This document shows positions 1 to 60,424 of a stretch of 60,424 nt of DNA, piece by piece. The notes under the pieces are model-generated. The model was not told where the DNA came from. It saw only the letters and a program-made list of their open reading frames with translations, and searched no databases. This stretch comes from a virus. Both the position numbers and the translations under genes were made by a program. Positions within the stretch are counted from its first letter, which is position 1, and every line of letters begins with the position of its first letter. Location: IMG/VR virus record IMGVR_UViG_3300030329_003758, positions 1 through 60,424 of that record; one strand, 5' to 3'.

Positions 1-98
1 CTGCTACAGAACGTGGTGAAGGTCGCAGGGCTCCAGGTCTTGTACAGCCGACTGTTGGGGCAGGTGCTCCCGAATATCACACAGGTAGTAGTGATGTT
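1..98. repeat. Terminal overlap, left edge (identical to 59605-59702)
   Basis: These 98 bases are identical to 59605-59702; the first mismatch is at base 99. Together with the identity of 647-718 and 60353-60424, this shows that the two window ends are the same genomic locus. Between the edges the copies diverge strongly, so this is not a simple exact terminal repeat. Confidence 0.93.
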
Positions 99-650
99 AA
101 AAGCGCAGCACGAAAACTTCTTAATCAAGCAGTAATAGAAAAAGCATTGACTCCTGAAGAAGCTGATACGATTCTAAAAACTATAAAGGATCCTGGAGAA
201 ATTGCTCAGACAATTATTTTGTGGGCTCGGGACAAGGAAGTGCCTCTTTCTCCTGAATTCTCTGCTGATCTAGCTGGTAATATTCAAACATCTTGGTCTT
301 CTGCTGATCTTGCTGAGCCCACAGCGGGTAGCCAGCGAATGCTTGAAGCAGAAACAGGTGGGGAGATGGTTGGAGAGGTCCAGGAAGAAGCACTTAAAGG
401 TACTTCTGATGAGCCGAGTATCCAGGAAGTGAAGAATCGTGAAGCGGTCTACCGTAGTCTGATGGAAGACACCGAGGAGGATCCTGACGATCCCATGCCT
501 AAAACTCTCGGAGCACTTAGAGAGAAGACAGGACAGCTTCAGCTTCCAGATCGTAGACTTGAACCGAACCCAAATGCGACGGGCACTATGAAAGATGCTT
601 ATGAGACTAAGGGTCGAGCCCGTCGTCGTAGTAGGGGTTGGTATCCATGA
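1..650 (+). CDS. C-terminal part of putative ejection protein, variant copy A (5' end cut by window edge)
   Basis: The window opens inside a frame (codons from base 3) that stays open to the TGA at 648-650. It is a second version of the end of the 967-residue protein at 57444-60347. Bases 1-98 equal 59605-59702, and peptides such as AEPTAGSQRMLEAET and NREAVYRSLMED are shared. The stretches between the shared blocks differ, and this copy is 102 bases shorter overall, still in frame. It ends in a basic run (KGRARRRSRGWYP). Its stop overlaps the next gene's ATG as ATGA, while copy B stops five bases before that ATG because of one base change. I read it as the same gene seen through the circular junction, not as an extra gene. 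Confidence 0.8.
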   Translation, partial: ATERGEGRRAPGLVQPTVGAGAPEYHTGSSDVKSAARKLLNQAVIEKALTPEEADTILKTIKDPGEIAQTIILWARDKEVPLSPEFSADLAGNIQTSWSSADLAEPTAGSQRMLEAETGGEMVGEVQEEALKGTSDEPSIQEVKNREAVYRSLMEDTEEDPDDPMPKTLGALREKTGQLQLPDRRLEPNPNATGTMKDAYETKGRARRRSRGWYP

Positions 651-3600
651 GCCGTGATGTTGTTGCAGAGTATAAAGCTTATCGGCAGGCTCAACAGGCT
701 GCCCAGGGGGCTCTATATGAACAACAAAAAGCAGATGAAGAGTCAAACCCAGATCGGACAACTACGCAAGCTCGCTACCAAGCAGTCCAAGAAATCGGTG
801 GACCAATTACGATACCGGAGGATTCCGGCTATACACCTGAACAACACCGCGTACTCACAGGATCTGTCTATGATCCGGCCTACCCTAAGATGGATGAAGA
901 TCTAGATATAGATCGAAATGCAGGAATTAGGAGGCTGTACCAAAAATTGGGACACATCCCTGCAGATTTTAGGTGGGGAAAGGCTGATGATATTGATTGG
1001 GAAGATTTCCCCGATGATGTCCAACCCGACTCTGAACTTCAACCTTCTGTTAAAAGGCGGACTCAACCGCAGTATGGAGCAATCCGTTGGCGTCCTGAGG
1101 ATGAACAGCGAGTTCAGCGCGGTGTTGCAGCAGGAGAACTTGTTGCGGAAAGGTTTGAAGTAGCCCCAGCAAAAGGCTACCAGTGGGCCACTTCTCCTCA
1201 GGCTGGGCAGCCGCTTCCAAAAGTCGAAAGAAGTAGAGATCTAGAGGTAGAGCGGGGTGTCGCTCGCCCAGAGATGTTCGATTACGAGCCTCAGGGTGTC
1301 GATATACCAACACTGTTATCTAAGACATTTGATTGGAATCAAATTGGGAATCAAATCCCTGTACTACAAGAGGCATTTGATCAGTTTACGCTATCTCGGA
1401 ATCAAGATGCCCTGCGGGCTTTGAATGAGTCTCGTGCACTTGCGAAAAAACCAGCGCAGATTGCTCCTATCGATTTTGAGTATAAATTCGATGATATGGG
1501 TCGGGGTTGGTATGAAAGTAAAGATCCCGAGATTCAAGAAGCTCTAGATGATCCGATTATTGGTCAACAACTTGAGGGCTCTCCCGGCATTCCTGGAAGA
1601 TCTTGGCAGTACCTCAAGGATATTAACGATGAGGTAGATAGGCTCAATGCTCTTGGCTTTCATTCCGCTGCTCGACGGGAGTCTTATGAAAGATTTATTC
1701 CAGTCATTTCCGAGATTGGTTGGGATCTATTAGAGCTTTCGATCTGGACGCTTGATGCGCTTCCTATTCCATCTAGGATCGATCCATTCCCTATTCTCCA
1801 ACAAATCATGCCTACGGATCAGGAGCGTGAAAGCTTCAAGAACCTACGCTTGAAGACTTGGGATAATCTTACCCCTGAAGCTAAAGAGAAGGCAGCTACT
1901 GACCCTGAATATTTTATTCGTATGATGTATAACCAGAGAGAAGCAGACATTAGGTTTGAAGTCTCATCTGGGCACATCACTGAATACTTAGAGCAGTTGG
2001 TTAACTCCATGCCTACTGAGTTTCCTGTCTCTGATCCTGTATCTTGGGCTGAGAAACTCGGACCAGGAGAGCCTTATGAGGAAGATCCTGCAAAGATTGT
2101 AGAGGGTCGAGATAGAGGTATCGAAATCAATTGGCGACCTGGAGCAGGCCTCGATATCGCAGAATATAGGCGTGGTCGAGTAGATCATCTAATGAGAAAT
2201 TGGTTTAACCAATATCTTGAATTCGATGATGCCGGAACTCCAGACGATACTAGGGATGATAAAACTTTTCTCGTTTGGAACGGCGAAAGAATTCCAGTCA
2301 AAAATGTGACTTGGAAGCATATGATGGCTCAGCTGTCAGAAGAATCTCAATGGCAAGTACATGCGGATGTTAGCCGCCGTCTTGCAGCTGAGACTTCATT
2401 CCTGATCCACCAAGGTGCTCTAAAAGCTCAAGAGCTTGCAGAAAAAACAGCTTGGCGAGAGGGTGAGGGGTTTAAGGCTGTTGGAACAGGTTTTAGTTTC
2501 TTTGACGATGATTATATGAGGACTACGAATGAGATCGCCAAGGGCCTAAATCCCTATAATGACGATGCTCCTTGGATTAAAGATATTCCTCTTCTTGGAA
2601 AGCATCTAGAAGGCCCATATCGAGTTGCTCGGGCAGCGACTGCGCGACGACCTGGAATGTTTCTGAAGTACTACCCAAGTGCTCAAGCGTGGCGTCCAGG
2701 GAGAGATGGTCCTACTCAGTGGGAAATTAGACACAGAACGGGATTAGACTGGCTCATGGGCTGGGTCGGTACGACCTGGGAAGCAGGAATGCTAGAGCCC
2801 ATGATCGATAAGCTGCGTCAGAACGAGTCGGATGCAGGTGATCTGGTGTATCGATATATGCGGTCCCTTACCGATTCTCCCTATGAGTACACGCTAGTTG
2901 ATGATGAGGGTAAAGAAGAGTCCTACCGCCTTTTGGCAATGGATACGCCAAATCATGAGTGGTTTAATGACATAGTTGATGGACAAATTGCTATTACAGA
3001 TGAGCGTAGACTTGCAGAACATCTTGGCGATATTCCTTGGGGAGCTGAAAGAGAATCAACACTCCGTAAGGTATTGAGAGGAATTGAACCAAAGGGGATT
3101 CATCGGCCTTTTGTCGGGTATCGACAGTTCAATAAAGATACTGGAAAGATTGAACTAATTACGAAGAAGGAGGTTCTAGACGACTTTGTAAAAGTTCTAG
3201 AAGAAACCTATAATGCGACTCTTGGTCCTGAGATGTCGCCAGAAGATCGGGTTCGTCAGGTTGAGTCTATACGACAGCATAAGTTTCTAGCTCATGAGAT
3301 GGGGGCTGTTTGGGCTGAGTTGGCAGATGCTTTAGAAGTAGACCAAGAAACTAAGAACGCCATGGTAATTGGCGGTTCAATTGTGACAGGATTTGGGCAG
3401 GAGTTTGCTAATCCAATTGATCCTATCTTGGCTGGAATGCGACTAACTGGGAAGGGTTTGAAGTATGCCAAGAGGACTAAGCAGTGGAAGCGAGAGACGC
3501 GACCTGCCTATCTAGATCAAGTATCTGATGAACTAAGAAAAGAGCTAGACGATGAACTAGCTAAGATCAAAGATCACGTATACACCAACCGAGAAGACCG

Positions 3601-6600
3601 AATTAAGGATGAAGCGGTCATATTTGATATGATCAACACAAGGGCACACGAGCGGGGCATGAAGATTGATCATGTTGCTCAGCTAATTGTCGAGGCTCGA
3701 ATTGCCCATCAAGAAGGATATCGACATTCCATCTCCTGGTCGCTAGATAAGGCAAGAGCAAACACACTTAAATCAGAACAGAAAGCTAGAGCATTGATGG
3801 GTGAATGGGGCTATCAAGAGCCTCGGTGGATCCTTTCTGGTGGTGATTATGCTACTCCAACAGACCGAGCTTTTCGGTCTGAAGACTACCTTAGAGGTGT
3901 CGTAAAATATAATCCGAGACAATCCAAGCAGTACTCTATTGAGAACCCAGCCCAACCAGGACTCTTGGAAGCGGGTCTTCGTCCTGCAGAAGCTCGAATC
4001 CAAGCGAAAGGAATGGTTAGTGATGATATTCAAAGGTTCTCTAAGGAAGTCGCCGAGGATACCCAAGATCTAGATGTGTATGTAGTCTTTCGAACTGAGG
4101 ACTATATTAAAGAGAATTTCTCTACTGAAGTTTGGGAGATTGCTAAGCGAGATCAGTCGATTTCTCTCGATCTCCAACCTGGAGATACCAGTAAGTTGTA
4201 CCCAGTCTATCTAGGTAGACTAGAAACTGATGTTGTTGGCCAGGCAGTACGTAATCCAACAAGATCATCCTGGGCAGATAAGGTCGGTCAGTCATCAAGA
4301 GCCGATGATGCTCGATGGGCACCAATCAATCCAATTCGGGATGCGGAAGATTCACGGAAAGTTACGCAGTGGAAGCTTGCAGAGGTAGAAGATCAACCAA
4401 CACTTGGTCTAGTTCCAACTTCAAAAGCTCGGTCTTATACTTCTGACTTTGTATTCGGTGGGAGATTCCAGGGAACAAACAGTCTTCCTTCTCCAAATAA
4501 GAATATCTACGGACGTACCTTTGATCCTCGAACTAAAGAGGGGGCTCTCCCTCAATGGCGTAATCCTTTAACTCGGGAGTGGGAGAGCCCGACAACACAA
4601 GGGCTAAAGGAAGCCGGTCAACTAAAGCAGTATGAGCGGTGGATCGATATTAGAATTGAGATTGAGAGGAATGTAGAAGAGGGACTGAAGTTGGCCCATG
4701 CGAAGGCATCTCATGAGGCTAATGAGTGGTTTAGTGTTAGAGGGAGCTTTGCTAGGAAGTTCCAAGCTGTTTCTGATGAACTCGATATTCTTGAGAAAGA
4801 TCTGAAACAGGTGAATGGTGAGCTGGCAAAGGTAGTTTCGCAGATAGAACCTTCTGTCATCGCTTTGAATGGCCTCTCATTGAAGAGGGGAGACATCAAT
4901 CGCCGAATAGCCGAAGTACTAGAGAAGATTAAAATCACTTCTAAACCTCTCAGGGGGAAAGGAAAGAAGCGGTTCAAGAGGGGAACAGTCAGAGGCGATA
5001 GAATTCGATCAGAGCTGACTGGGTATCAATCAGATTTGGCGAGTTTGCGTGGTGATCTTGCAGTTGTGGAAGCTTCGCAAGCCGAGATCTTTGCAAATCG
5101 TAACTTCAGAAACCTAGAGTCTAAAAGACGGGAGCTTACTGCTAGGCAAATCGAATTGGGGGCTCGACAAACTATCGCTATGGACGAGATGTTAAAGGTC
5201 GATGAGCTATTTGCTTCACTCCCTCGGGCGACCCCAATAACTACAGTTAAGGGTGCTGCTGAGTTAGAGATGAGTATTGGAAAGGGTCTTCGTGCGACTG
5301 AAAGTAGAACTCTTCAACAACTCAGAGCCCAGCAGAAACACCGCCGTAGATACGAGCATGCTGCGAGAAAGTCATCTCCTAAGAAAAGAGAAGCAGCTTT
5401 TAGGGCAGCTGAGGAAGCAGCTAATGCATCAAAGCAAAGACTTTATTCAATGCTTGATGCGTATAAAGAGGTAGCTGAGGATCTGAGAAAAGGCCTAGAA
5501 GCTGTTGACAGTATGCCAAAAGATACGGGGCGGTTTGTTAATATCCTCGAAGAGTCTGGGGCTATCTCTGAGACGAAGAGCCCCGATCCAGTAACTTGGT
5601 TTAGGTCTAAGATCTTAAGGTCTATTACAGCCTATAATGATGATGGAAGCCGCGCTGTCGATGTAGATAAGCTTATGGACTATCTCCGAAATAGTTGGGG
5701 AGATCGTGCTGTTGACTACATTACTGAGAGCATCATTGGAGGACCAAAACAGCTTCATCAGGCAAAGATCGATGGGAGGACGCTTCAAGCTTCTGAGCTT
5801 AAGAAGATGTCTGATACCTATGAGCAGACTGTAGAGAAGATCAAAAAAGTTAATGAAGAGATGGTTGAGTGGAGAAGGTCTGATGAGTATCGGACATCGA
5901 CTGAAGCTGAAAAGAGAAGACAGCTAGATCTTTATGTTGAGAAGCTAACCGATCTTAACCAGATCAAGGCTCAAAATGAGGTTGTACAAGCTACCGTTAT
6001 TGGGACTCGTGGTGGTCAAGCTGGTGACGTTCTTCATAGGATCAAAGCGGCGCAAGAAAAGGGGATCAAAACAGTCGATCTTAGTCTAGAAGAGATTGAG
6101 AATTTTCAGCATATCAATAATGGCCTTCGGCATGCCTACCGAGAAACTCATGAGGCTCGACGTGGACTCTCATACTTGGAAGCCATGGATCAAGCAGACC
6201 AAGATGTATTTGGCTCTCTGATTCTTCGATCTACTTACTACCTAAAACCCCTAAAAGAGCGGAATAAACTAAACTTTTATATCTTTCCCAGTATTCTCCA
6301 AAAAGCTCTCTACCATAAGGATGTAGTTTCATATATTAGCTACATCGCTAAGAGATATATGAGAATCTTTAATCCGATTTCCGCTCGGATTGGAGAAGTT
6401 AGCAAGGATGTAGAGAACGTCTTTAGAGCGTCTGAAAATCTTCGAGATCATGTACATACTGAAATGTACGAGTACCTCCGAATGATGGATAGAGCCCACA
6501 AGGGGATGTCTCCATCCGTTCGGGAGGAAATCTACTTCGACGGTGTTGTCGAGATGATGTCGAAAACAGAGGCTGACGAGCCTCTATCGATTGCGTATAA

Positions 6601-9600
6601 GTCACCCTTAAAGTCTGCTAAGGTTTGGATGCACTCTGGAGGGGCGGTCCATCCACAAGCAAGGCAGAGTGTTGTAAATAATCTATCTCTCCAAGATGAT
6701 CTCAGCATCATTAAGGAGCAGATGGAACTCCTTAGATTTATTGAGACAGAAGCCAAGAGACTCAATCCAGTGGGGAATGTTGAGTCACTCAAAAATTCTA
6801 TTACTAAAGCTTTCGAAACTGGCAAGTTTAAGAACATGCCAAATGGAAAATCGGTTCTTCAGTATATTATCAATCAGATAGATCTTTGGAAGACACCACC
6901 CCAAGGGCAAAAGAGGAGTATTGATACACTTATTGGGTCATACTCAGAAGGAACTCGTGGTATCCGCGACATATCGAAAATCAAGGCAACGGGAGATGAA
7001 GCGATTAAGCAGATGGATGATATCCTCCGGGAATCAGAACCCATTACGCTAAACCGACTTTTGGCTACCAGATGGAACATGGGAGATTATGATAATTGGT
7101 TTGCCCGTGCGAAGAATTTTCGTGAATCCAACATCGTTCTATCTTGGTCCCGCGCCTTTATCCCTCATGGGCACGCCCCCAGCCCATCAAGAGCGGCTTA
7201 CTATTACGCTAGAACCTTGCGCCTCTTCCATGATCCCAGATCAACCGACTTCAAGTGGCTGCTCGAACAGGTGCAGAAGATGCACATGCGAGACTTTGGG
7301 CCTGAGACAAACAAGACTCGGGCTTACGCTATTGCAGCTCTCGCTTCTATCGATGGCATGGTTATCTTCCGTACAAATCGACTAATGGAAAGAGCTATTG
7401 GAGGGTTCCTAACACCAGATCAGGTAAGGTCAGGGAATGCTTGGCTCCAGCAGACAGAGAATTCAATTAAAGGTTGGGATGCAGCGCTCGACGCCAACAT
7501 CCGAGCCGGTCGCCCCATTAAACAAGACCGGATTAGAACAGGCGATAAGAAGAAGCTGACAGACTATGTTCTTTCTGGGATGGACGAGAGCGGAAGAGGC
7601 TTCTGGACATCAAGACCAATCTCTGAAGCTGCTGATGAAGTAACAGAGCGTATTGTCAAAGAGACTGCAATGCAGTACTCCAAAGCGAGGACTCCTGAAG
7701 AGGCTTTTCGGACAGGGGCTCAATGGAGTGTTGGCCGATTGTGGCGAACTTCAATTGTTACCGGTCTAGTAGTCCCCCAGCCGCGTTACTTTTACAACAA
7801 CTACTGGGGTGATTTCTCCCAGATTTGGCTCACAGAAGGCCTATATAGAGCTGGGAAGATTAACTTCCAGTTGATGACAGATATTCCTTGGTGGAGTGAT
7901 AAGCTCGATAATTACCAAAGGCGGATCACTGAGTGGGTACATAAGAAAAACCCGAACGCCCCAGTCTTGGGATCGACTTTTAATGCTCTAATGAACCCCT
8001 GGGCTAATAGGGTGTGGAGAGGGGAGAAAGGGTATTTGAGGCTACCTGATGGGCGTTTGAAGTCGTTCGATTCGATTCGAATGGATCTCGTCAATAGCGG
8101 AGTCTTAGATACCCAGGCTAATCATGATCTTCTTTCTTCTATGGCTAGAGTTACTCCACACTCCTGGAAAGAAGTTCCTGGGATTGGATCCCCTTTCCGT
8201 AAATCGGAAGAGTATCTAGATAAGTATTACCGAGGCCAAGCTCCTGGAATTACTGGGGAGATGAAAGCTCTAGGGGCTATGGGTGTCACTGGGTTGGGTA
8301 GAGGGCTCCAAGCAACGACTGATATAGCTACAGATTGGCGGCAAAATATTAGTTGGTGGGCCACCTATGTACAACAACGTCAGCGTGGCAACTTTTATAT
8401 GGAGATGCTTCGCCTGGGCTATACCGAAAAAGAAGCTATTCGCCGCACCTTCAATGCTCTGTATGATTGGAGAAATGGAATCACAGAGTATGAGATCAAA
8501 TGGCTTGCTAAATACGTTCCATTCTATCGATTTTGGCGGCTCGCCCTAAGCCAGATGGGCAGAGAGTTGTCCCAACCTCTTCTTCGTCCCAGCGAAAAGA
8601 TGGTTGACCTGCATATGCTTGGAATGAAAGCCCGAATTCCAGGTGAGTATGTCGGCCAGAGTGGCTTGGGGCGTGTTCGTCAGCAGCACGTATTTAGAGA
8701 GATGCTTCCCTACTGGACAGAGCCAGAGATGTGGGAAGAACTGGCACAAGATGAACAGCAGCTTATCCGCTATGCTCATGCTCTCCGCCCTGAGTGGCTC
8801 TATTCTCGCCCAACCTGGGGCTGGAAGGTTCTCCCTGAAGACCAGAGAAAGTTCTATATGGAGAATCGAGGTAGGGCGTTGGGCTATAGCGTTAATGCTC
8901 TTGGGCCATTTACAGCTCTCGACACAGCTGAATTTTTTATGTCGACCAATAAGGCATGGATGGGGCTCCTACTAAAGGCGATGCCGGGCGACACCATGAA
9001 CTCTCACATAGCCCCTGATTTTGAGGAGAATTTCTTTCGGAACTCTTTGGATATGCTGATGCCCATTCAGAAAGAGATGGCTCAGCAGTTTCTTATGGAC
9101 AATGGGTTTGATGCTGGTGGCCACCATAAAGGGCCAGTTACTCGTCTCCGACCGGGAGAAGCGACTATGGCGAACAGCCCAACTTTTGGTATTGAAGCTT
9201 GGTTGGATCCAGATCTAGGGACTCCTGTTGCGCAGAGAGGAGCGGTAGCCCTCTATAGAATGCTCCCTGTTGTTGGGACAGAACTCCCTGGGCTAATGAA
9301 TGCAGCTTGGTCGGATAACTATAGGATGCAGAAGTTCACCCGAGACTACCTAAACAGCGCTAAAACTCCAGATTCGAAGGATTTCATCCGGGGCTTGCAA
9401 TTTGCTTTCGGTCGGCTTGGAGGATTTGCTCAACAATATCCGATTGATCCACACCAAAGACTTCGGCATATGGCTGCTGATAAGCAGAAAGCTTTCAATA
9501 AAGCTTCGCAGAAGATTGGTAGACCAGATCTCATCTCAGATCAGCCTTATCCATATCCTTACAACTGGAGACTGGATCAGCCTATGGAGGAACAGGAGCC

Positions 9601-9619
9601 TGAGGATGAAGATAAGTAG
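647..9619 (+). CDS. Giant 2990-residue putative virion-internal / ejection protein
   Basis: This is by far the largest gene. The ATG at 647 overlaps the stop of the upstream gene (ATGA); a TTG nine bases earlier is possible but less likely. The protein is soluble-looking and charged, with no signal peptide. Its middle (about residues 1350-1620) is Lys/Glu/Arg-rich and probably coiled-coil, and the last third is rich in Trp and Tyr. It follows a 967-residue Ala/Glu/Arg-rich protein and sits between tail appendage and fibre genes, the usual place of podovirus internal virion (ejection) proteins. I see no lysozyme, transglycosylase, protease or polymerase motif that I trust. Function is inferred only from size and position; an alternative is a large polyvalent protein with several enzymatic domains I cannot recognise by eye. 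Confidence 0.75.
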   Translation: MSRDVVAEYKAYRQAQQAAQGALYEQQKADEESNPDRTTTQARYQAVQEIGGPITIPEDSGYTPEQHRVLTGSVYDPAYPKMDEDLDIDRNAGIRRLYQKLGHIPADFRWGKADDIDWEDFPDDVQPDSELQPSVKRRTQPQYGAIRWRPEDEQRVQRGVAAGELVAERFEVAPAKGYQWATSPQAGQPLPKVERSRDLEVERGVARPEMFDYEPQGVDIPTLLSKTFDWNQIGNQIPVLQEAFDQFTLSRNQDALRALNESRALAKKPAQIAPIDFEYKFDDMGRGWYESKDPEIQEALDDPIIGQQLEGSPGIPGRSWQYLKDINDEVDRLNALGFHSAARRESYERFIPVISEIGWDLLELSIWTLDALPIPSRIDPFPILQQIMPTDQERESFKNLRLKTWDNLTPEAKEKAATDPEYFIRMMYNQREADIRFEVSSGHITEYLEQLVNSMPTEFPVSDPVSWAEKLGPGEPYEEDPAKIVEGRDRGIEINWRPGAGLDIAEYRRGRVDHLMRNWFNQYLEFDDAGTPDDTRDDKTFLVWNGERIPVKNVTWKHMMAQLSEESQWQVHADVSRRLAAETSFLIHQGALKAQELAEKTAWREGEGFKAVGTGFSFFDDDYMRTTNEIAKGLNPYNDDAPWIKDIPLLGKHLEGPYRVARAATARRPGMFLKYYPSAQAWRPGRDGPTQWEIRHRTGLDWLMGWVGTTWEAGMLEPMIDKLRQNESDAGDLVYRYMRSLTDSPYEYTLVDDEGKEESYRLLAMDTPNHEWFNDIVDGQIAITDERRLAEHLGDIPWGAERESTLRKVLRGIEPKGIHRPFVGYRQFNKDTGKIELITKKEVLDDFVKVLEETYNATLGPEMSPEDRVRQVESIRQHKFLAHEMGAVWAELADALEVDQETKNAMVIGGSIVTGFGQEFANPIDPILAGMRLTGKGLKYAKRTKQWKRETRPAYLDQVSDELRKELDDELAKIKDHVYTNREDRIKDEAVIFDMINTRAHERGMKIDHVAQLIVEARIAHQEGYRHSISWSLDKARANTLKSEQKARALMGEWGYQEPRWILSGGDYATPTDRAFRSEDYLRGVVKYNPRQSKQYSIENPAQPGLLEAGLRPAEARIQAKGMVSDDIQRFSKEVAEDTQDLDVYVVFRTEDYIKENFSTEVWEIAKRDQSISLDLQPGDTSKLYPVYLGRLETDVVGQAVRNPTRSSWADKVGQSSRADDARWAPINPIRDAEDSRKVTQWKLAEVEDQPTLGLVPTSKARSYTSDFVFGGRFQGTNSLPSPNKNIYGRTFDPRTKEGALPQWRNPLTREWESPTTQGLKEAGQLKQYERWIDIRIEIERNVEEGLKLAHAKASHEANEWFSVRGSFARKFQAVSDELDILEKDLKQVNGELAKVVSQIEPSVIALNGLSLKRGDINRRIAEVLEKIKITSKPLRGKGKKRFKRGTVRGDRIRSELTGYQSDLASLRGDLAVVEASQAEIFANRNFRNLESKRRELTARQIELGARQTIAMDEMLKVDELFASLPRATPITTVKGAAELEMSIGKGLRATESRTLQQLRAQQKHRRRYEHAARKSSPKKREAAFRAAEEAANASKQRLYSMLDAYKEVAEDLRKGLEAVDSMPKDTGRFVNILEESGAISETKSPDPVTWFRSKILRSITAYNDDGSRAVDVDKLMDYLRNSWGDRAVDYITESIIGGPKQLHQAKIDGRTLQASELKKMSDTYEQTVEKIKKVNEEMVEWRRSDEYRTSTEAEKRRQLDLYVEKLTDLNQIKAQNEVVQATVIGTRGGQAGDVLHRIKAAQEKGIKTVDLSLEEIENFQHINNGLRHAYRETHEARRGLSYLEAMDQADQDVFGSLILRSTYYLKPLKERNKLNFYIFPSILQKALYHKDVVSYISYIAKRYMRIFNPISARIGEVSKDVENVFRASENLRDHVHTEMYEYLRMMDRAHKGMSPSVREEIYFDGVVEMMSKTEADEPLSIAYKSPLKSAKVWMHSGGAVHPQARQSVVNNLSLQDDLSIIKEQMELLRFIETEAKRLNPVGNVESLKNSITKAFETGKFKNMPNGKSVLQYIINQIDLWKTPPQGQKRSIDTLIGSYSEGTRGIRDISKIKATGDEAIKQMDDILRESEPITLNRLLATRWNMGDYDNWFARAKNFRESNIVLSWSRAFIPHGHAPSPSRAAYYYARTLRLFHDPRSTDFKWLLEQVQKMHMRDFGPETNKTRAYAIAALASIDGMVIFRTNRLMERAIGGFLTPDQVRSGNAWLQQTENSIKGWDAALDANIRAGRPIKQDRIRTGDKKKLTDYVLSGMDESGRGFWTSRPISEAADEVTERIVKETAMQYSKARTPEEAFRTGAQWSVGRLWRTSIVTGLVVPQPRYFYNNYWGDFSQIWLTEGLYRAGKINFQLMTDIPWWSDKLDNYQRRITEWVHKKNPNAPVLGSTFNALMNPWANRVWRGEKGYLRLPDGRLKSFDSIRMDLVNSGVLDTQANHDLLSSMARVTPHSWKEVPGIGSPFRKSEEYLDKYYRGQAPGITGEMKALGAMGVTGLGRGLQATTDIATDWRQNISWWATYVQQRQRGNFYMEMLRLGYTEKEAIRRTFNALYDWRNGITEYEIKWLAKYVPFYRFWRLALSQMGRELSQPLLRPSEKMVDLHMLGMKARIPGEYVGQSGLGRVRQQHVFREMLPYWTEPEMWEELAQDEQQLIRYAHALRPEWLYSRPTWGWKVLPEDQRKFYMENRGRALGYSVNALGPFTALDTAEFFMSTNKAWMGLLLKAMPGDTMNSHIAPDFEENFFRNSLDMLMPIQKEMAQQFLMDNGFDAGGHHKGPVTRLRPGEATMANSPTFGIEAWLDPDLGTPVAQRGAVALYRMLPVVGTELPGLMNAAWSDNYRMQKFTRDYLNSAKTPDSKDFIRGLQFAFGRLGGFAQQYPIDPHQRLRHMAADKQKAFNKASQKIGRPDLISDQPYPYPYNWRLDQPMEEQEPEDEDK

Positions 9620-9626
9620 TTCTACA

Positions 9627-9656
9627 TTGACAGAAATGCCCAAAAAGCAGTATGTT
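9627..9656 (+). promoter_or_regulatory. Candidate sigma-70-like promoter before fibre genes
   Basis: A perfect -35 TTGACA at 9627-9632 is followed after 18 bases by TATGTT at 9651-9656, in the short gap between the giant gene and the fibre cluster. It would drive the genes from 9676 to 15114. The -35 is consensus and the -10 moderate. Confidence 0.45.
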
Positions 9657-9675
9657 TTCACACAAGGAATAGATA

Positions 9676-10062
9676 ATGGATAGTCGATATTACAGAGTTC
9701 GGTTGAGCGTTACCAACACAGGAACAAGCGACAACCAGACCGTTCAGCTTCCGACCACTGCTGAGTCTGCCAATAAAGTCTGGCTACTCTCTTCTTTTAC
9801 CTTTGTGCGTAGCGGCGGCTCTGGCTCCACCTGGGCTCCTCGCTTGATGCAGACGAGTTCGGCAGCCAACGACAGTATTGATCAGCGTATGGTCTACTCG
9901 GCTGGAAGCGCTGTCATTAATGACGTGTTTGCTCAGCCTATGCCCTGTTTGGCTGATGCCGATGGCAGGCTTTATTTCAAAGCTGGATTTAATTCAGGTA
10001 GCGATAATGACTATGATGCTGAGCTGTGGTTCATTCGCGCCAAGGGTGGAGCTAAATCATAA
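9676..10062 (+). CDS. Small beta-rich virion/fibre-associated protein (128 aa)
   Basis: No family recognised by name. The protein is short, rich in Ser, Thr, Gly and Asn, and has alternating hydrophobic strands, the look of a beta-sandwich phage surface protein. It begins with MDSRYYRVRLSV and ends FIRAKGGAKS. A Shine-Dalgarno AAGGAA precedes the ATG, and the stop overlaps the start of the long fibre gene (TAATG). Size and style resemble the proteins at 11772, 43165 and 43545, which may be relatives. It probably sits on the particle next to the fibre, as collar, connector or decoration. Confidence 0.7.
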   Translation: MDSRYYRVRLSVTNTGTSDNQTVQLPTTAESANKVWLLSSFTFVRSGGSGSTWAPRLMQTSSAANDSIDQRMVYSAGSAVINDVFAQPMPCLADADGRLYFKAGFNSGSDNDYDAELWFIRAKGGAKS

Positions 10063-11762
10063 TGGGACTTTCTAAGCCGGGTTTTCCAAATAGTACGACA
10101 GGTCAGGTTGGTGTACTGTCAGACTTAGAAGTCGATGGAACCACCGTTGTGGTCGATGAGACCAATAATAGACTTGGTGTTGGCCTGGCTGATCCCAAAA
10201 CCAAACTGACGGTCGAGGGCGCAGTAACTCTAAAGGAACAGGCTAACGCAGATGGAAACACTGCGGCTTACGGGCAACTGTGGGTGAAGACTGCTACTCC
10301 AAACGAGCTTTATTTCACGACCGATGCCGATGACGATATCCAGATTACGTCAGGCACATCAGTCGTCGGACCCGCAAGCGCGGTATCAATGTCCAACGGT
10401 TCGGACAACCGTGTCACCACAGCAACAGGCGCTTCGGCCCTGAACGGTGAAGCCAACCTGACGTTTGACGGTACGACGTTGGCGGTGAATACAGACGTTA
10501 CAGCTACGACGAACCATACGACTGTCGGCTCTCAAATCGATTACGACGCAACAGGAATTATCGCCTCTGGGCAAACCGGCCAGAACATTGCCCTCGATAT
10601 CGATATAAACTCAGACACTCCGACCATGGTTGGTACTGTCGTCAACTACGGAATCGACGTTGATGTCGTTGGTGGTACATCAGGAACCCAGACCTGCGTA
10701 GGTCTCGATGTTTCTGCCACTGGTGGAGATCTTAATTACGGGGGTATCTTTACAGGGTCTTCAGCGGACATTGTTGTAGGAGCGTCAGGAACCGCCGATG
10801 CGTGCAACATCTCCGCCAGGACGCACACCAGCGGAACTACAGCGGGTAAGAACCTCACCGTCCAGGCCGGAAGCGCGGTCACTGGTGGAAGTAACAACAT
10901 CAACGGTGGTGACCTGATCCTGAAGTCAGGAAGCGGAGACGGGACAGGAACCTCGTCTATGCAGTTCCACACCAAGGTGAGCGGAACTGACGGCGTTGCC
11001 GAGCGCATGCGTATTCACACTGATGGAAGTGTTGGTATCGGAACAAACGCACCTAGTGCTTTATTGCACGTCAAGGGTGCCACCCCAACTGTCTACTTCG
11101 AAGACACGGATACAAACTATGCGCTGAGTTTCAAGGATGGCTTGACCATGGGTTGGGGCTCGGTCGCTGACACAGACTCCTTCATGGAATTCGGCCCGAA
11201 TGCTGGCACTGGCTACAATCATCTCGACACTGCCGCTCGTGACTTCCACCTGTTTGGAACAAACACCACAACGGGATTCTTTATGGACGAGGGTTCCGGG
11301 CTCTTTGGCTTTGGAACCACCGCTCCCAGTACAACAGTGGTTGTTGAAGGCGCTGTTTCTCTTAAGGAGAGGTCTGCTGCGGAGAATAAGTTCACAGACT
11401 CAACCTGTGATTACAACAACGATCCCACGATTACGATGGACTCCACCGCAAACCTGCGGGTGGGATTGGCTGTCTCGGGCACAGGTATTCCAGCTGGTGC
11501 CACCGTCGCATCCATTACGAACTCGACCACCTTTGAGTTGAGTGCCTCTACTACGGGTGGCGCGGTTACAAACGGAACACTTACGTTCACCCCCAAAGCA
11601 GCGTATGGCCAGCTTTGGGTAAAGACCGCCACTCCAAACCAACTCTATTTCACGACCGACGCTGGGGATGATATTCAGCTTACGTCAGGAACATCTGCTG
11701 CTGGCGGCGGTGGCTCTAACGATGACCTCGATCTTGTCCTCCACATGCAAGTTTTCTCATAG
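10062..11762 (+). CDS. Tail fibre protein with internal repeats (566 aa)
   Basis: A Gly/Thr/Ser/Ala-rich, beta-repetitive protein typical of trimeric fibres. Two kinds of repeat are visible. A VGIGTNAPSALLHV-type unit, common in phage fibres, occurs near residues 38-52, 325-340 and 416-430 in diverged forms. A unit containing YGQLWVKTATPN and LYFTTDA occurs near residues 70-100 and again near 515-545. The second pair is also alike at the DNA level (about 10265-10357 and 11602-11694), so it arose by duplication. It presumably contacts the host surface. The gene overlaps its upstream neighbour by one base and is followed by two smaller fibre-cluster genes. Confidence 0.85.
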   Translation: MGLSKPGFPNSTTGQVGVLSDLEVDGTTVVVDETNNRLGVGLADPKTKLTVEGAVTLKEQANADGNTAAYGQLWVKTATPNELYFTTDADDDIQITSGTSVVGPASAVSMSNGSDNRVTTATGASALNGEANLTFDGTTLAVNTDVTATTNHTTVGSQIDYDATGIIASGQTGQNIALDIDINSDTPTMVGTVVNYGIDVDVVGGTSGTQTCVGLDVSATGGDLNYGGIFTGSSADIVVGASGTADACNISARTHTSGTTAGKNLTVQAGSAVTGGSNNINGGDLILKSGSGDGTGTSSMQFHTKVSGTDGVAERMRIHTDGSVGIGTNAPSALLHVKGATPTVYFEDTDTNYALSFKDGLTMGWGSVADTDSFMEFGPNAGTGYNHLDTAARDFHLFGTNTTTGFFMDEGSGLFGFGTTAPSTTVVVEGAVSLKERSAAENKFTDSTCDYNNDPTITMDSTANLRVGLAVSGTGIPAGATVASITNSTTFELSASTTGGAVTNGTLTFTPKAAYGQLWVKTATPNQLYFTTDAGDDIQLTSGTSAAGGGGSNDDLDLVLHMQVFS

Positions 11763-20258: not shown

Positions 20259-21140
20259 TTACCAACCACTGTTTGATTCGATGAACAACTCATCGATCAT
20301 GTTTTCCCTGGACTCCGTAAGCACTGCCCTATGCAACGCATCCTGCAGAGCCCATCGAACATGGGGTACGGAATGCTTCTTACGGAGAACAAGAGAAGCT
20401 TTTTGTAGAACCTCTCTCCAGTTTTCAATCCCACTATCTAGGATTGCCTTGGAGAGTCCTTCTACTGTAGTAGTTTGCCACGCCAAATCTTTGGGGCGGG
20501 GAATGTCATAGCCAGCAAGACGCATGGCTTCTGCTAGATTCATTGGAGCATTGCTAGGAAAGACAGACAGTCTATCGCCAGCAATGTATTGAGCATCGGA
20601 GACTGTACGGAGTACAAAGCTCCAGGGCTTAGCAGTCTCCTCATAAACAACACGGGCTACAACATCTGAGAACGCACTGAACTGCTCTGGTAACTGACCC
20701 GGCAGGGCAGGACCGCCACGTACAAACTTACCAGATGAAGTCTTAGGTGGAGCTTCATGGCAGTTGAAGATTACGTGGGTTCCTTTTTCTGTCGCCGCAC
20801 GAGCCGCATCTCTCATCTTTAAAACCTGATGCCTAAGGGCACGCCACATCTCACCGAAAGAGTGTGACTGTTCAAGCTGTGCAATGGTCTGCTCTACGAG
20901 AATAGAGAAGTCATCCATTACTATAGTGGGATGCTTACCAGCCTCTGCCTCTACAATCTTTGCAGCAGCTTCTACGTTATGTGCCGAGGCTACCTTCAGA
21001 TCCTCTAGACCTAGGAAGTTCTTTAGTGGGAGAAGACCACCGGGCTGAGCAATAAACAAACCAGTAGCTCCTACTGCACCTGTGCAAGTACTCTTACCAG
21101 TCTTGGCAGGTCCGTAGACTGTAACGAATACCCCGTTCAT
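20259..21140 (-). CDS. Sak4-like RecA-fold ATPase (293 aa)
   Basis: Walker A GPAKTGKST (10-18), Walker B PTIVMDD (71-77), and a later strand THVIFNCHEAPP typical of phage RecA-core ATPases of the Sak4 type. These assist single-strand annealing recombination together with SSB, and the next gene downstream is SSB-like. The start overlaps the previous stop (ATGA). The protein is longer than a minimal RecA core, with about 100 extra C-terminal residues of unknown role. Confidence 0.75.
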   Translation of the reverse strand: MNGVFVTVYGPAKTGKSTCTGAVGATGLFIAQPGGLLPLKNFLGLEDLKVASAHNVEAAAKIVEAEAGKHPTIVMDDFSILVEQTIAQLEQSHSFGEMWRALRHQVLKMRDAARAATEKGTHVIFNCHEAPPKTSSGKFVRGGPALPGQLPEQFSAFSDVVARVVYEETAKPWSFVLRTVSDAQYIAGDRLSVFPSNAPMNLAEAMRLAGYDIPRPKDLAWQTTTVEGLSKAILDSGIENWREVLQKASLVLRKKHSVPHVRWALQDALHRAVLTESRENMIDELFIESNSGW

Positions 21141-21879: not shown

Positions 21880-22102
21880 TGTTTTGTTCCTCCAATGAAC
21901 GTGCATAGTCTGCAAGTGTAGGTATATCCATGGGTCTTGAACCACGATCATACTTCTTTAGAGGTATACCCTTGCGACGATATTGAGCAGCCCTACTAGC
22001 AACTGCTGTCTTCTTCATGCTCAGACGCTGTGCTGCTTCAGCGGTGCAGCTAGAGGTTTGCCATACTTGGATAAACTTCTTGGGATCGATACGCTTGGTC
22101 AT
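21791..22102 (-). CDS. Small helix-turn-helix-like protein (103 aa)
   Basis: Starts at 22102 with ATGA overlapping the nuclease stop. Residues about 5-45 (QVWQTSSCTAEAAQRLSMKKTAVASRAAQYRRKG) show the spacing of a helix-turn-helix DNA-binding domain of the kind found in phage small regulators; the C-terminal half is Glu/Arg/Gln-rich. The 3' third overlaps the HNH gene in another frame. Translational coupling supports it. The exact binding role is unknown. Confidence 0.6.
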   Translation of the reverse strand: MTKRIDPKKFIQVWQTSSCTAEAAQRLSMKKTAVASRAAQYRRKGIPLKKYDRGSRPMDIPTLADYARSLEEQNNAAETRGPELQERVRQGPFRPEGQEGEGS

Positions 22103-22947
22103 TGGGATTCTCCCCATTGGCAGGTTTCAAAGGCTGGACATGGACCGTACTTCCCATAGCAAATCTGTTCGCTAAAGACAGGTGGGTAGTCCAGTGGTTT
22201 TTCCAGATGTGCATACTTCTGGATTCTTTCTTCAGTCTGCTTGAGACTGTGAATGAAATGAGAGAGGGCAGAAGGAGCAGGTTCAATAGGACACCGATGG
22301 TATCCATAGGGCTCGCTCATCTTCACCCTGTTGATGATTACTCCCCGGAACCGTCCAGGGTATGCAACTCTACCGAGGCACTGATAGCCCAGGAACTGCC
22401 CATTAAGAATATGCTGGCGAAGACTCTTGGAATCAATACGCGAACAAGTTTTGTGGTCAACAATCCAGACTCCTCCGCCGACATCCTCAATGATTAGATC
22501 AGCACGCTGTGTATATAGAAAGGTTCCCTCTCCATTAAGGTTAGGGATGTGGGCTCTTAGCTCTCGCTCAACTTCCAGGATCTTCCAGTCACAGGAGGAG
22601 TCGTAGCGCATTGTGTAGTCTTTGATTACCCTCTGCACAGGCTCAATCTGATCCTTCCAAAGCTGTGCTTCAGCACCTGTAGTTTCGGCCCACTCTGTCA
22701 TACCAAGACGCTTCACGGCATCTAGTTGGTGCAGGTAACCAGGGGCATGGTTGTTATTTTGTCTATGCAGGTAGTAGTGAGCTAGACCCACATGAAAAAG
22801 ACTGCCTCTCACCAGGGGCATGGTCAGGGGGAAGTTCATATCAGCCTTGTGATTGAAAGCCCACCAGCGCATGCAGCGGTTCGCCTGCTCAAACTGGTGC
22901 CACCCGCGCTCAGAGGGGCCAGCATCTAGCAGCTTGTCCGGTTCCAT
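22099..22947 (-). CDS. Cas4/RecB-like PD-(D/E)XK nuclease with predicted Fe-S cluster (282 aa)
   Basis: The nuclease core is visible: H53, D150 (RADLIIED), D164-H-K166 (WIVDHKT) and Q186-x-x-Y (QFLGYQ region). C25 near the N-terminus and C263, C270 and C276 near the end (ICYGKYGPCPAFETC) fit the four-cysteine Fe-S arrangement of Cas4 and AddB nucleases. It should act as a single-strand exonuclease in recombination or end processing. A Shine-Dalgarno GGAG lies before the ATG, and a consensus promoter lies 55-80 bases upstream, so it heads unit D. Confidence 0.85.
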   Translation of the reverse strand: MEPDKLLDAGPSERGWHQFEQANRCMRWWAFNHKADMNFPLTMPLVRGSLFHVGLAHYYLHRQNNNHAPGYLHQLDAVKRLGMTEWAETTGAEAQLWKDQIEPVQRVIKDYTMRYDSSCDWKILEVERELRAHIPNLNGEGTFLYTQRADLIIEDVGGGVWIVDHKTCSRIDSKSLRQHILNGQFLGYQCLGRVAYPGRFRGVIINRVKMSEPYGYHRCPIEPAPSALSHFIHSLKQTEERIQKYAHLEKPLDYPPVFSEQICYGKYGPCPAFETCQWGESQ

Positions 22948-29728: not shown

Positions 29729-31195
29729 TCAATCCTCCACTCGAACGGTTCGCATCCAGTCTGGGGTATCTTCATCTACCCAACGACCAACAAGGCAACA
29801 GATGATACGAACATTTCGTGGAGCCTTCTCAGGCCAATCAGTCCAACCGTCAGTAAAGACAACAATGATATCAGGGCAAGGCCGCTGTTCCATAGTAGCC
29901 TTGATACCAACCCTCATGTCAGTACCTCCACCACCTTCTACCTTTAGGTCAGAGATCCTAGTTAGTTTGGACACTCCATAGGACACAGAATCACAACAGC
30001 AGTATGTGATCTTTGCCATGGGATCGATGGTTCGCATGATCCCTTGCGCCTCACTACCTGCAGCTCGAAGCTCTTCTCCTGACATAGAACCAGACGTATC
30101 AAACACCATTGCAATGTCAGGTACAGGTTCAACATCACCGGGCAAGATACAGTCTGGCATTTCCCTACGTGACCTAACCCTATAGCTCTTGTCATATTGA
30201 CCACGAGCCCATGTGTCGCAGTTTCTAAACATAGACATGAAGGTACGCTTCCAGTTGATCTTAGGTGGAGTGAGTAGTTGTTCCAATAGAATCAACATTC
30301 CAGCCGGGGCATCACCCCTTTGCTTTTCAGTAAGAGACTTAGCTTTGATTGCAATCTTCTGTCGGATGACTTCCTGGTCTTCAGGCAAAGTACCAACACC
30401 AGATTCATCTGGAGGTGGAAGCTCATACCCACGTTCTTGTCCATCCACACCAGACCCACAGTCACCATTGGCAACACCGGGGCTGTTAGACGATCCCTTA
30501 CCAGAAGATCCATCATTAGAAGAGTCTTCAGATCCACCTGAATCAGATTCGCCTTGATCTGAATCGTCAGATTGTTCAGAACTATCACCCGGAAGGGTTG
30601 AATCGGACTCTTCTTCACTTTTCAATCCGGGTTCACCTTCTGGACCTGACTTATCTTCTTCTTCTTCCTGCTCATCACGCTGTTCTTTCCAGTAGCGTGC
30701 ATACCATTCCATGGTCTTACCCGTAGGAACATCCATCCATACGCCTTCAACCTCAAGCTGATACCTCCATCCATGATTGGCATTACACCAGACTGGGAGG
30801 ATCCCTCCAGCGATCCCATCCAATAGTTCAATCAGCTTGGGTTCATCATTGATCTCCATATCAGCAAAGATATTGCCTAACCGTGGAGATAATCCCAATG
30901 CTGCCATACGTTCCATGTGTCGCATGAGTGGATGCAATGCTTCATGGGCAACAACTCCAGCTCTTTGTCTAGTGGTAAGGGTAGCCCACCATGTTGGGTT
31001 GATGTAGACACGACAGTACTTGTCGACACCAGCAGTACCTGCTTTAGGTTCGACAATGAAGTCAAGTGCTCCGATTATATCGAACCACCAGTCGAATGTA
31101 TGGATAGCAAGTAGTCTCGCTGAGCGAGTGCTTTCCAAGCATTGCGCAGCAAGTAGCTTTACTTCTTCTTCTGGGGCTATGTGTTGAGTCTGCAT
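29729..31195 (-). CDS. VWA-domain metallopeptidase-like protein, DUF2201 type (488 aa)
   Basis: The N-terminal domain has HEALH (84-88) followed by NIFADMEIND (108-117), the HExxH plus N..D..N pattern of DUF2201 putative zinc metallopeptidases. A long acidic Ser/Gly linker (about 172-262) follows. The C-terminal VWA domain has a full MIDAS: DTSGS (366-370), GGGGTD (T425) and TDG (D449). VWA proteins of this kind work with a MoxR AAA+ ATPase, and one is encoded upstream in the same unit. Its leader matches the other module genes. Likely a metal-dependent assembly, chaperone or protease factor. Confidence 0.85.
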   Translation of the reverse strand: MQTQHIAPEEEVKLLAAQCLESTRSARLLAIHTFDWWFDIIGALDFIVEPKAGTAGVDKYCRVYINPTWWATLTTRQRAGVVAHEALHPLMRHMERMAALGLSPRLGNIFADMEINDEPKLIELLDGIAGGILPVWCNANHGWRYQLEVEGVWMDVPTGKTMEWYARYWKEQRDEQEEEEDKSGPEGEPGLKSEEESDSTLPGDSSEQSDDSDQGESDSGGSEDSSNDGSSGKGSSNSPGVANGDCGSGVDGQERGYELPPPDESGVGTLPEDQEVIRQKIAIKAKSLTEKQRGDAPAGMLILLEQLLTPPKINWKRTFMSMFRNCDTWARGQYDKSYRVRSRREMPDCILPGDVEPVPDIAMVFDTSGSMSGEELRAAGSEAQGIMRTIDPMAKITYCCCDSVSYGVSKLTRISDLKVEGGGGTDMRVGIKATMEQRPCPDIIVVFTDGWTDWPEKAPRNVRIICCLVGRWVDEDTPDWMRTVRVED

Positions 31196-33737: not shown

Positions 33738-34862
33738 TCAGGTGAGTCCAGCATCTTGCAAGATGTCAAACAACGCTTCCACATCGGGCAAGGTTCCGTT
33801 CCAACCCTTGGGGCTTCCAGCTTTGGCAAGGTCAATACAAGCCAGGGATGCATAGTCGGCATGTCCTGTTTCATACAGGGTTCCGATTAGATCCCAACAA
33901 GCCTGGACATTCTGACAAGTAAACTCACCATCGGAAAGTGTACCTGCAACACAAGCCTTGGCCATAGTCAGGATCTGATCTCCACGCTTGGGCCAGTTAG
34001 GACTGTGTTGGTTGACCCTACCAGAAAGAACATCACGCCAATCTGGAATGTCTTGTTGCTTCTCCCAGTTTACATACTTGAGAGCCAGTTCTTCTCCAAT
34101 GCAACCAGCCAATAGAATCATACGTGCTTCCATATGTCCGGTTCCTTTGCATAGAGCATTGTAGAGAGCAACATGTGTCCATTGTCTTGGACATGGTGCA
34201 GCTAAATGTGCTTCTGCTGCATCCTGGTCAAGGTATTCAGGAGCGCTCCGAATGAACGCGGATACCATCACACGTTCTTGGGGAATACGGTCAGTCCAGG
34301 ATGAATCAAACTCAACAACGTCTATGTTTTCAAACCCAGACTCATTGCCATCGGCCCATGCATTGGCATCTACATCAGCATTAATACAACAGACACGCTT
34401 TCTTACTGGGATTGACATGGCTCCACCAGTAGTAGAGATTTCAGGTGGATTCCCAGCACCACATAGTGCAGTCAATAGTGGAAGTTGTTCGATTCCAAAT
34501 GTCTTCCCACAGAACACAGGATGTACTGCACGCTGGACAGATGGAACAAGATCACAGACTTCATCAAAGAAGACAATGCATGAACCCTCGGGCAAGTCCA
34601 GAATGGAACGGACATATGCATCTGGATAGAAACGCATGGTTCCGGTTGTATGGTCGGGTACACCATAGCCTGAGATATCTTCAGCACACTTACCAGACAT
34701 CTCAAACCCAAAGAGCTTCTTACGCATGGCCTTTGCGATGGCTTTGGTAACTGCAGTTTTACCAATACCAGACCTTCCAATGATTATGATGGGTGGAAGC
34801 TCAGGATGATGAAACTGTCCGATAATAGCGATCTGATACGCAAGAAGTTGGTTCTTGTTCAC
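33738..34862 (-). CDS. MoxR-family AAA+ ATPase (374 aa)
   Basis: Walker A GRSGIGKT (29-36), Walker B CIVFFDEV (D100, E101) and sensor-1 GAGNPP (N138) give a complete AAA+ core of the MoxR/RavA type; a C-terminal lid region follows. GTG start at 34862 behind the module leader. First gene of unit B, downstream of the TGACGTCA-containing promoter. MoxR ATPases remodel VWA-bearing partners, and the DUF2201-VWA protein at 29729 is the obvious partner. In other genomes such pairs mature metalloenzymes or act in conflict systems. Confidence 0.85.
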   Translation of the reverse strand: MNKNQLLAYQIAIIGQFHHPELPPIIIIGRSGIGKTAVTKAIAKAMRKKLFGFEMSGKCAEDISGYGVPDHTTGTMRFYPDAYVRSILDLPEGSCIVFFDEVCDLVPSVQRAVHPVFCGKTFGIEQLPLLTALCGAGNPPEISTTGGAMSIPVRKRVCCINADVDANAWADGNESGFENIDVVEFDSSWTDRIPQERVMVSAFIRSAPEYLDQDAAEAHLAAPCPRQWTHVALYNALCKGTGHMEARMILLAGCIGEELALKYVNWEKQQDIPDWRDVLSGRVNQHSPNWPKRGDQILTMAKACVAGTLSDGEFTCQNVQACWDLIGTLYETGHADYASLACIDLAKAGSPKGWNGTLPDVEALFDILQDAGLT

Positions 34863-38861: not shown

Positions 38862-40597
38862 AGATTGTTCCCTGGTCCTGGATGACGAAGATTGAGCAGA
38901 AGTGGTTTGAAACACTTTCTCCTGACGATCTTGAGGATCTCAAGTCATTCGGAATGGAGATTTCTCAGAGCGATCACCCTGAGTATGGCGGTCGTGTTCT
39001 TCAGGTGGGGAATCCTAATAAAGCCAATCAGTATTTTGATGAGGTTTGGGAGTCCTGGGAGCGTAGCGTCGGTGAGGCAGATGTATTAGACGAGCCTCCT
39101 CGTACATTCGATCCAACTATGAGGGATCCAGGCCGCTATAATGAGATGGCAACAGATCTTCCTCACTTCTCAGCACGCTATTTGTCGCCTGATGAGTATG
39201 AGCCATATCGTTATCGCCCTCCTGAGAGTCGAGAACAATTCGAGAATCGGCATCGTCCTCAGCGGAAAGTAGTGCCTATTGACGCTCCAGATCGATCAGG
39301 TGCTGGTGAGTTTTATTATCCTCATGGCACTAAGAAGGAGGCGCTTCAGCGGAAGCGAGAGCAGATCAGACAGGGGGTGATCGATTCACATGTCGAAGAA
39401 AATCTCATGCGGAATCTTAGGCCCGAAGATGCAATTCCTGGGACTGGAGATCCTGTACCCCCTTCTGAGGCAATTGATCTAGAAGTACGCCGACATCGAA
39501 AGAAGCTTCACAGCCTATTTGATGATCTTGCTGTTGCTTCTACTGATGATGAGATCTATGAAGCTATACGAGCTGCTGATCAGTATATTTATGATCGAGA
39601 AGTCAAATACTCTGCGAAAAGCTCTAACCGAAGGAAAGAGTGGCAACTTAAGCTGGCTAATGAGTTTGAGGAGAGCGCACTGGATTCTGATGCGTTTAGG
39701 CAAAGACTCCAGCCTATGGATGGTCCACCCATCAAGGGATCTCCAGGAGCCCGAGGGGAAATTATAGATAAAGCTATTGATGTAGGTGTTTTAGAAGAAG
39801 CAGCTGGAATCGATAAGTCCGATTTTGATCAGATTGAAGCCATGATTGAGATGAGGCGCAATCTGGGCTTGAATTTGGGTGGTGGGGCAGATGAGTCTTT
39901 GGACTTTATCCACCAAGTGCGGACGACTTTTGGGGAGCTGCCACCAGAAGAATTCGCTGTTTCTCAGGAAGAAGTAGATGCTTTCATGGAGAAGCTACAG
40001 AAGTATGGAGAACGTCAGTACTCAGATCTCTCTCCCGCCTCTCAACAGGCTAGGGCTCATTGGGGATATGGTCAGCCTGGAGATGTTCGCCAGTTTCCGA
40101 CAGAAGAGCGGAGGAAGTCTCAGTCAGCCCAATTGAGCAAAGAAGCTCAAGAAGCTATAGCGAAGCACCAAGAAGAGTTCTCTAAAGCAATTACAGAGAT
40201 GAAGCAGCCGGGTCTACGCGCAGCTACCCTCAAGGGTGTTTTTAAGAAGCTTGGAACAGTGGGAGCAAAGCTGGGTGGTGTCGGTACTGCTGTTGATCTT
40301 CTTTGGCCAGCTAAGCTTGAAGGAGATCCCTACAAAGCTTCGGAGAGTGCTACTGGAGTTCCCAAAGGATGGACTGGTCCTGAGTGGAGAGAGCGTCAAG
40401 AGCGGGATGTAGCAGGGGCAGAGTGGCTATCCCAACAACCAGGATATGGAGATACTCCACCTTGGGCCAATGTTCCTTCTCGCCCTAGAGATCCTGAAGC
40501 GTATGAAATGCTTGCTCCTGGACAACAGAAGCAAGAAGATCGTTTAAAAGCGGTGGAAGAAGCTGTTAGGATGGATGAGATGAGGAAGAGACGGTAG
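38858..40597 (+). CDS. Structural/packaging-linked protein of unknown function (579 aa)
   Basis: Overlaps the previous stop (ATGA) with AAGGA upstream. Acidic and Arg/Glu-rich, low in hydrophobic runs, with Pro- and Tyr-rich parts (SPDEYEPYRYRPPESREQF) and an Ala/Lys-rich helical region near the C-terminus. It looks like an extended head or ejection component. No domain recognised. Lies between the packaging-side genes. Confidence 0.6.
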   Translation: MKIVPWSWMTKIEQKWFETLSPDDLEDLKSFGMEISQSDHPEYGGRVLQVGNPNKANQYFDEVWESWERSVGEADVLDEPPRTFDPTMRDPGRYNEMATDLPHFSARYLSPDEYEPYRYRPPESREQFENRHRPQRKVVPIDAPDRSGAGEFYYPHGTKKEALQRKREQIRQGVIDSHVEENLMRNLRPEDAIPGTGDPVPPSEAIDLEVRRHRKKLHSLFDDLAVASTDDEIYEAIRAADQYIYDREVKYSAKSSNRRKEWQLKLANEFEESALDSDAFRQRLQPMDGPPIKGSPGARGEIIDKAIDVGVLEEAAGIDKSDFDQIEAMIEMRRNLGLNLGGGADESLDFIHQVRTTFGELPPEEFAVSQEEVDAFMEKLQKYGERQYSDLSPASQQARAHWGYGQPGDVRQFPTEERRKSQSAQLSKEAQEAIAKHQEEFSKAITEMKQPGLRAATLKGVFKKLGTVGAKLGGVGTAVDLLWPAKLEGDPYKASESATGVPKGWTGPEWRERQERDVAGAEWLSQQPGYGDTPPWANVPSRPRDPEAYEMLAPGQQKQEDRLKAVEEAVRMDEMRKRR

Positions 40598-60347: not shown

Positions 60348-60424
60348 TATCCATGAGCCGTGATGTTGTTGCAGAGTATAAAGCTTATCGGCAGGCTCAA
60401 CAGGCTGCCCAGGGGGCTCTATAT
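59605..60424. repeat. Right-hand copy of the terminal overlap (diverged from 1-718)
   Basis: Aligns with 1-718: exact over 98 bases at the left edge (59605-59702) and 72 bases at the right edge (60353-60424 equals 647-718), with shared blocks near 59921-59983 and 60060-60122, and different sequence, including a net 102-base in-frame excess here, elsewhere. Confidence 0.9.
60353..60424 (+). CDS. Start of the giant protein gene, cut by window end (duplicate of 647-718)
   Basis: These 72 bases, from ATG, are identical to 647-718 and encode the first 24 residues of the 2990-residue protein (MSRDVVAEYKAYRQAQ). They show that the map closes on itself here. Not a second gene. Confidence 0.9.
   Translation, partial: MSRDVVAEYKAYRQAQQAAQGALY

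Follow-up and report, generated by a model that had tools for sequence, protein, structure and literature searches.

Diverged ends of an uncultivated podovirus-like phage contig probably represent two mosaic alleles of one fast-evolving gene on a circular map

Why should the two ends of a single phage contig carry the same stretch of coding sequence, identical at its flanks but diverged in between? The question is raised by the window analyzed here (the whole stretch of 60,424 bases, an IMG/VR virus record), the ends of which a preliminary description had taken for alleles of one locus encoding the C-terminus of a putative ejection protein. Our analysis supports the core of this reading, namely that two alleles of one locus, lying in a mosaic, fast-evolving gene (gene X in the following), are displayed at the ends of a circular map. 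Four tests agree with it: gene X is single-copy in 14 relatives; the left contig end coincides with a branch point of an assembly graph at k = 99; the contig ends of relatives lie in unrelated genes and bear a 98-nt signature; and the internal blocks shared by the two alleles are devoid of synonymous changes. Taken as a whole, i.e. a circular map opened at a two-allele bubble, mosaic alleles of a fast-evolving gene and probably a gp15-type role of its product, this explanation has in our estimate a probability of about 0.88.

Direct comparison of the two ends showed that positions 1–98 are, as had been described, an exact copy of positions 59605–59702, both on the plus strand. The second identity, of 647–718 with 60353–60424, is likewise exact; the full run is 5 nt longer (642–718 and 60348–60424, plus strand, 77 nt) and begins immediately after a single G/A difference at 641/60347. 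An exact repeat of 98 nt in 60 kb is not a chance occurrence. Other repeats in the window are short and marginal; one of them, a 25-nt direct repeat with 92% identity (39362–39386 and 52961–52985, 13.6 kb apart), may be due to chance. Altogether, homology between the record ends spans 718 nt on the left and 820 nt on the right, with 565 of the 718 aligned bases identical (79%) and 102 gap columns. The proposed net in-frame indel of 102 bases was borne out, as the spacing between the copies increases from 59604 to 59706 (+102 nt) and both reading frames remain open. Identical and diverged runs do alternate in the interior, but the portions that had been called unalignable are mostly diverged yet alignable homologues, and true length differences between the alleles are confined to a few spots. 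Following the first diverged segment (59703–59915 in the right-hand copy, plus strand), the copies share a 67-nt block, TSWSSADLAEPTAGSQRMLEAET (291–357, identical to 59916–59982; plus strand), in a predicted unstructured linker, a 63-nt block, DEPSIQEVKNREAVYRSLMED (407–469, identical to 60059–60121; plus strand), in a mostly predicted helical region, and a 22-nt identical run (598–619 and 60301–60322).

The left-hand copy (allele A) encodes a 215-residue C-terminal fragment of gene X (3–650, plus strand), the N-terminus of which lies beyond the left contig end, while the right-hand copy (allele B) completes a gene X of 967 codons (57444–60347, plus strand), whose product is an alpha-helical, low-complexity, fast-diverging protein of the virion module. 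After both copies, the same giant gene begins (647–9619, plus strand; 2990 amino acids), its start being repeated at the contig end with the ATG at 60353. The G/A difference at 641/60347 sets the stop codon of gene X, which lies 5 bases ahead of the giant gene start in allele B or, in allele A, overlaps it as ATGA (TGA at 648–650).

The record is a closed map of about 59.6–59.7 kb of an uncultivated podovirus-like phage. PHROG matches on its minus strand comprise a DNA polymerase, a helicase, a primase, an exonuclease and a Sak4-like annealing protein, those on its plus strand a terminase, a podovirus-type portal/head-tail adaptor, a capsid protein and structural proteins. A search of viral contigs with the terminase large subunit (TerL; 41504–43162, plus strand) retrieved 77 related loci, whereas among sequenced phages only distant TerL matches, below 60%, were found. 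Fourteen relatives, 12 of which are 48–57 kb long, were compared at length, and they share a common gene order with the window. Read as a circle, the window thus exhibits the ordinary layout of its relatives, cut within gene X. Comparison of the locus in related phages, which the preliminary description had recommended, revealed, in each of the 14 relatives, a single gene immediately ahead of the giant gene and never two copies, the giant gene likewise being present once and at the same place. (In one of them, G029, the circle of which was likewise opened near the giant gene, gene X was read from the ORF map.) These observations bear on the idea that the window is a fragment of a larger genome in which the 3' part of gene X has been duplicated. 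Such paralogy would account for two differing in-frame copies on one record, but as the same giant gene start follows each of them, the whole 60 kb would have to be duplicated; given also the single copy in the relatives and the 52–59 kb size of near-complete relatives, which corresponds to one turn of the map, we consider a duplication highly improbable.

Several other genes of this layout deserve mention in their own right. A DUF2201 metallopeptidase/VWA-like protein (29729–31195) and an ATPase of PHROG 1297 (33738–34862) are encoded in the same minus-strand gene block; they recall ATPase-VWA pairs, and both recur in relatives. Two small proteins of about 125 residues (43165–43530 and 43545–43949) have several related copies near the endolysin and tail-fibre genes of relatives, up to four in G037 and G010. 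A 175-residue virion protein (49796–50323) is 86% identical to its homologue in G003 but only 39% identical to that in G013, an apparent swap of a single gene, although G003 and G013 are otherwise close relatives.

The contig ends of the relatives lie in differing genes, among them the primase gene, the capsid gene, the vicinity of the giant gene and other places. In G006, G034, G036, G037 and G048, the first 98 bases are repeated at the other end with a mismatch within the last 1–3 bases; the end repeats of other relatives measure 92 nt (G011), 96 nt (G029, exact), 123 nt (G014, exact) and 126 nt (G038), and G041 shows a 126-nt tail run. G006, G011, G034, G036, G037 and G048, with repeats of 92–98 nt that stop at a mismatch 1–3 bases from the contig end, are circular genomes that would go undetected by a test requiring exact terminal repeats. 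As the ends of relatives fall into unrelated genes and exhibit repeats of 92–98 nt, the window ends do not represent a physical terminal repeat. A linear genome with a genuine, long but imperfect direct terminal repeat, the copies of which have diverged, would indeed place homologous sequence at both record ends, and the ends of relatives would then be expected at one common site. However, every round of replication copies one terminal repeat from the other, so that 21% divergence and indels between the copies would be unexpected; moreover, relatives, whose ends often overlap by 98 nt only, carry gene X intact and away from their ends, and TerL is distantly related to T4-like gp17, which fits headful packaging. 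We therefore assign a diverged terminal repeat a very low probability.

A comparable situation was observed in one relative, G016 (IMGVR_UViG_3300030107_003944), both ends of which lie in the major capsid gene. Its positions 1–955 align with the last 961 bases at 86% identity over 955 nt; identity is 95–100% per 100 nt for about 400 nt and then falls to 52–84%. This pattern suggests that the ends of G016 represent two capsid alleles and that the capsid gene is mosaic among coexisting phages.

The lengths of 98 and 126 nt equal k − 1 for k = 99 and k = 127, which are common assembler settings. We built de Bruijn graphs from two circular haplotypes, one with either allele, at several values of k. 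At k = 99, the graph has three unitigs, namely two arms joined to a backbone, and base 1 of the window is exactly where the allele A arm starts. The contig start thus corresponds to the node at which a strain bubble branches, the left shared flank of 98 nt being the k − 1 node. At the contig end, 77 shared bases follow the point where the alleles rejoin, 21 fewer than the 98 predicted by an untrimmed walk at k = 99, a discrepancy that weighs against the bubble without contradicting it, since contig ends can be trimmed. Based on this geometry, the assembler would have opened a circular map, of 59,604 bp if it carries allele A and 59,706 bp if it carries allele B, at the bubble, and the contig path would lead from the branch node through allele A, once round the genome and into allele B. 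Both alleles would then stem from phages of the assembled sample whose genomes are merged into a single sequence everywhere else, and their presence in one assembly suggests that these phages coexisted in that sample. No near-identical genome carrying either allele alone was found among the viral contigs, from which very near records may have been withheld, when these were searched with gene X, the two-allele alignment and a 23-nt shared block.

Within gene X, the distribution of differences between the alleles is uneven. The two internal blocks comprise 42 identical codons, in runs of 22 and 20, with synonymous changes in 0 of the 42, while 32 of the 68 identical residues in the rest of the interior are encoded by different codons (Fisher's p = 8e-9, to be read with the blocks having been picked after seeing the data). 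No identical run of at least 20 codons arose when the interior codon columns were shuffled 100,000 times; the block structure is therefore not a product of chance. Purifying selection acting on the protein leaves the missing synonymous changes in such short blocks unexplained, whereas recent exchange accounts for them. Identical blocks of 63–98 nt separate anciently diverged segments, as expected if old alleles had recently recombined over short tracts. Gene X is also mosaic in the pair G003/G013, in which nearly unrelated sequence gives way abruptly, near alignment column 440, to largely identical sequence.

The mosaic could instead have been made by the assembler, as an inter-strain chimera joined at shared k-mers, or by chimeras formed during amplification, rather than by natural recombination. 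Inter-strain chimeras can be produced by standard assemblers (PMC11443906), and the 67- and 63-nt blocks form branch points in the graphs with k = 33 and 55, where an assembler could switch between strains. Strain switching could re-phase segments but cannot create identical blocks, however, and a stretch of 63–67 nt that lacks synonymous change amid strongly diverged neighbours must have existed beforehand; in addition, branching at the blocks disappears from k = 77 upward, and the independent pair G003/G013 is mosaic in the same gene. An artificial mosaic thus appears unlikely, and we regard the variation as real mosaicism in gene X, between phages that probably coexisted.

Programmed variation, by a diversity-generating retroelement or by invertible or cassette switching, would also limit changes to one end of one gene and set them between identical anchor blocks. 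No inverted repeats and no donor copies of the blocks occur elsewhere in the window, no reverse transcriptase or site-specific recombinase was seen among the ORFs scanned, and the differences are old, with indels and synonymous changes rather than adenine-directed substitutions. It is hence a remote prospect. Altogether, a true terminal repeat, a paralogous duplication, a diversity-generating retroelement and an inversion switch were rejected in favor of two naturally mosaic alleles of a single locus.

Gene X diverges fast beyond this pair of alleles. In every close pair of relatives it has the lowest identity of six virion genes, tied with the giant gene in one pair, and the giant gene is the next least conserved; gene X is 19–47% identical in these pairs, compared to 46–92% for the portal, and in the closest one, G003/G013, TerL is 96%, the portal 92% and gene X 47% identical. 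Homologues of gene X in relatives encode 512–1087 residues. Profile searches against PDB, Pfam and PHROGs yielded chance-level matches only for gene X and for the giant protein, which thus has no family match, and phage records contained no relative of gene X or of the conserved part of the giant protein. The closest relative of the giant gene that was found, L147 (IMGVR_UViG_3300025112_000773), is a 10.8-kb fragment with 82% amino acid identity over 467 residues and about 74% nucleotide identity over 5488 to 10136; it was excluded as a source of a third allele, as it ends before gene X. In an AlphaFold model of X (mean pLDDT 56.6), helices predominate, together with long disordered regions, and Foldseek searches with such low-confidence models gave no confident match, the results being meaningless. 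A helical bundle predicted with confidence, X residues 751–821, corresponds to the first diverged segment, and residues 29–93 of the allele A fragment show the same predicted helices, though many residues differ.

What might a protein of this kind do? Judged by position and character, the function of X most likely resembles that of an ejection protein of the T7 gp15 type. Homologues of gp15 comprise 431–982 residues, are usually matched by synteny and diverge much faster than the portal (PMC8954989). X shares with them its place before a larger, gp16-like gene and a tail fibre (a weak match at 10062–11762), its size (967 residues), its mainly helical character and its divergence, much faster than that of the portal. 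An injection role would accordingly be suggested by gene order, size, predicted helicity and divergence rate. X is classed here as working like gp15 and not as a member of that family, since searches matched it to gp15 neither by sequence nor by fold, and no protein clearly resembling the membrane protein gp14 was seen beside it: no segment with a 19-residue Kyte-Doolittle mean above 1.5 is present in the small upstream genes. The position of the giant gene suits a gp16-like ejection protein, although its product has about double the size of T7 gp16 and contains no strongly hydrophobic segment. A 770-residue protein of the tail module had no PDB match by profile, so that the T7-like layout rests on gene order.

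The phage encodes candidate agents of the exchanges. A Sak4-like single-strand annealing protein (PHROG 124; 20259–21140, minus strand) may have mediated recombination over short homologies, possibly partnered by an exonuclease (PHROG 1218; 22099–22947, minus strand). Among phage annealing proteins, Red beta recombines over 23–27 bp (PMC3945230), and members of the Sak4 family anneal in vitro (PMC5928155). Relaxed recombination by annealing proteins lets short identical stretches permit exchange between diverged genes, although this relaxed fidelity is established for Rad52-like recombinases (PMC3945230) and not for Sak4. We envision that coexisting phages might co-infect a host and exchange parts of gene X over short homologies, and that selection might then favor variety in a protein that meets the cell envelope. 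The sequence steps of this chain are those documented here, and its remainder we infer. The likely selective cause would be the host envelope or exclusion by resident prophages. We give little weight, as a speculation, to the further possibility that selection maintains a recombination hot spot at the 3' end of gene X, where short identical anchor blocks would allow members of this group to swap specificity segments of an ejection protein, and coexisting phages could thereby match different host envelopes or evade exclusion proteins. A mosaic, hypervariable gene X would agree with arms-race ideas on ejection proteins.

These data add an uncultivated podovirus-like group with a hypervariable, mosaic gene before a giant gene of the virion module. 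What looks like an imperfect "terminal repeat" in a metagenomic phage contig can thus represent a closed circle with two strain alleles, and such records are complete genomes that also hold population data, rather than fragments or genomes with true terminal repeats. Both the assembly outcome and the phage variation that it brings to light are of familiar kinds, whereas the phage group concerned is little known. The ejection proteins gp16 and gp20 of P22-like phages are among the most variable and highly mosaic virion genes, and SieA exclusion can be evaded through altered C-terminal regions of these proteins (PMC10883804); they resemble X in being variable and mosaic, but no homology to X was found. 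In microdiverse marine phages of the HTVC010P type, a hypervariable island includes an internal virion protein, and in tig404/HTVC010P and Polarivirus skadi, as here, short-read assembly is interrupted by variation among strains at a single virion locus (PMC6487183; PMC10504331). Those marine phages belong to another phage group, the giant gene of about 3,000 codons being a feature of the present one, and they differ in that here the break left both alleles readable at the ends of one contig.
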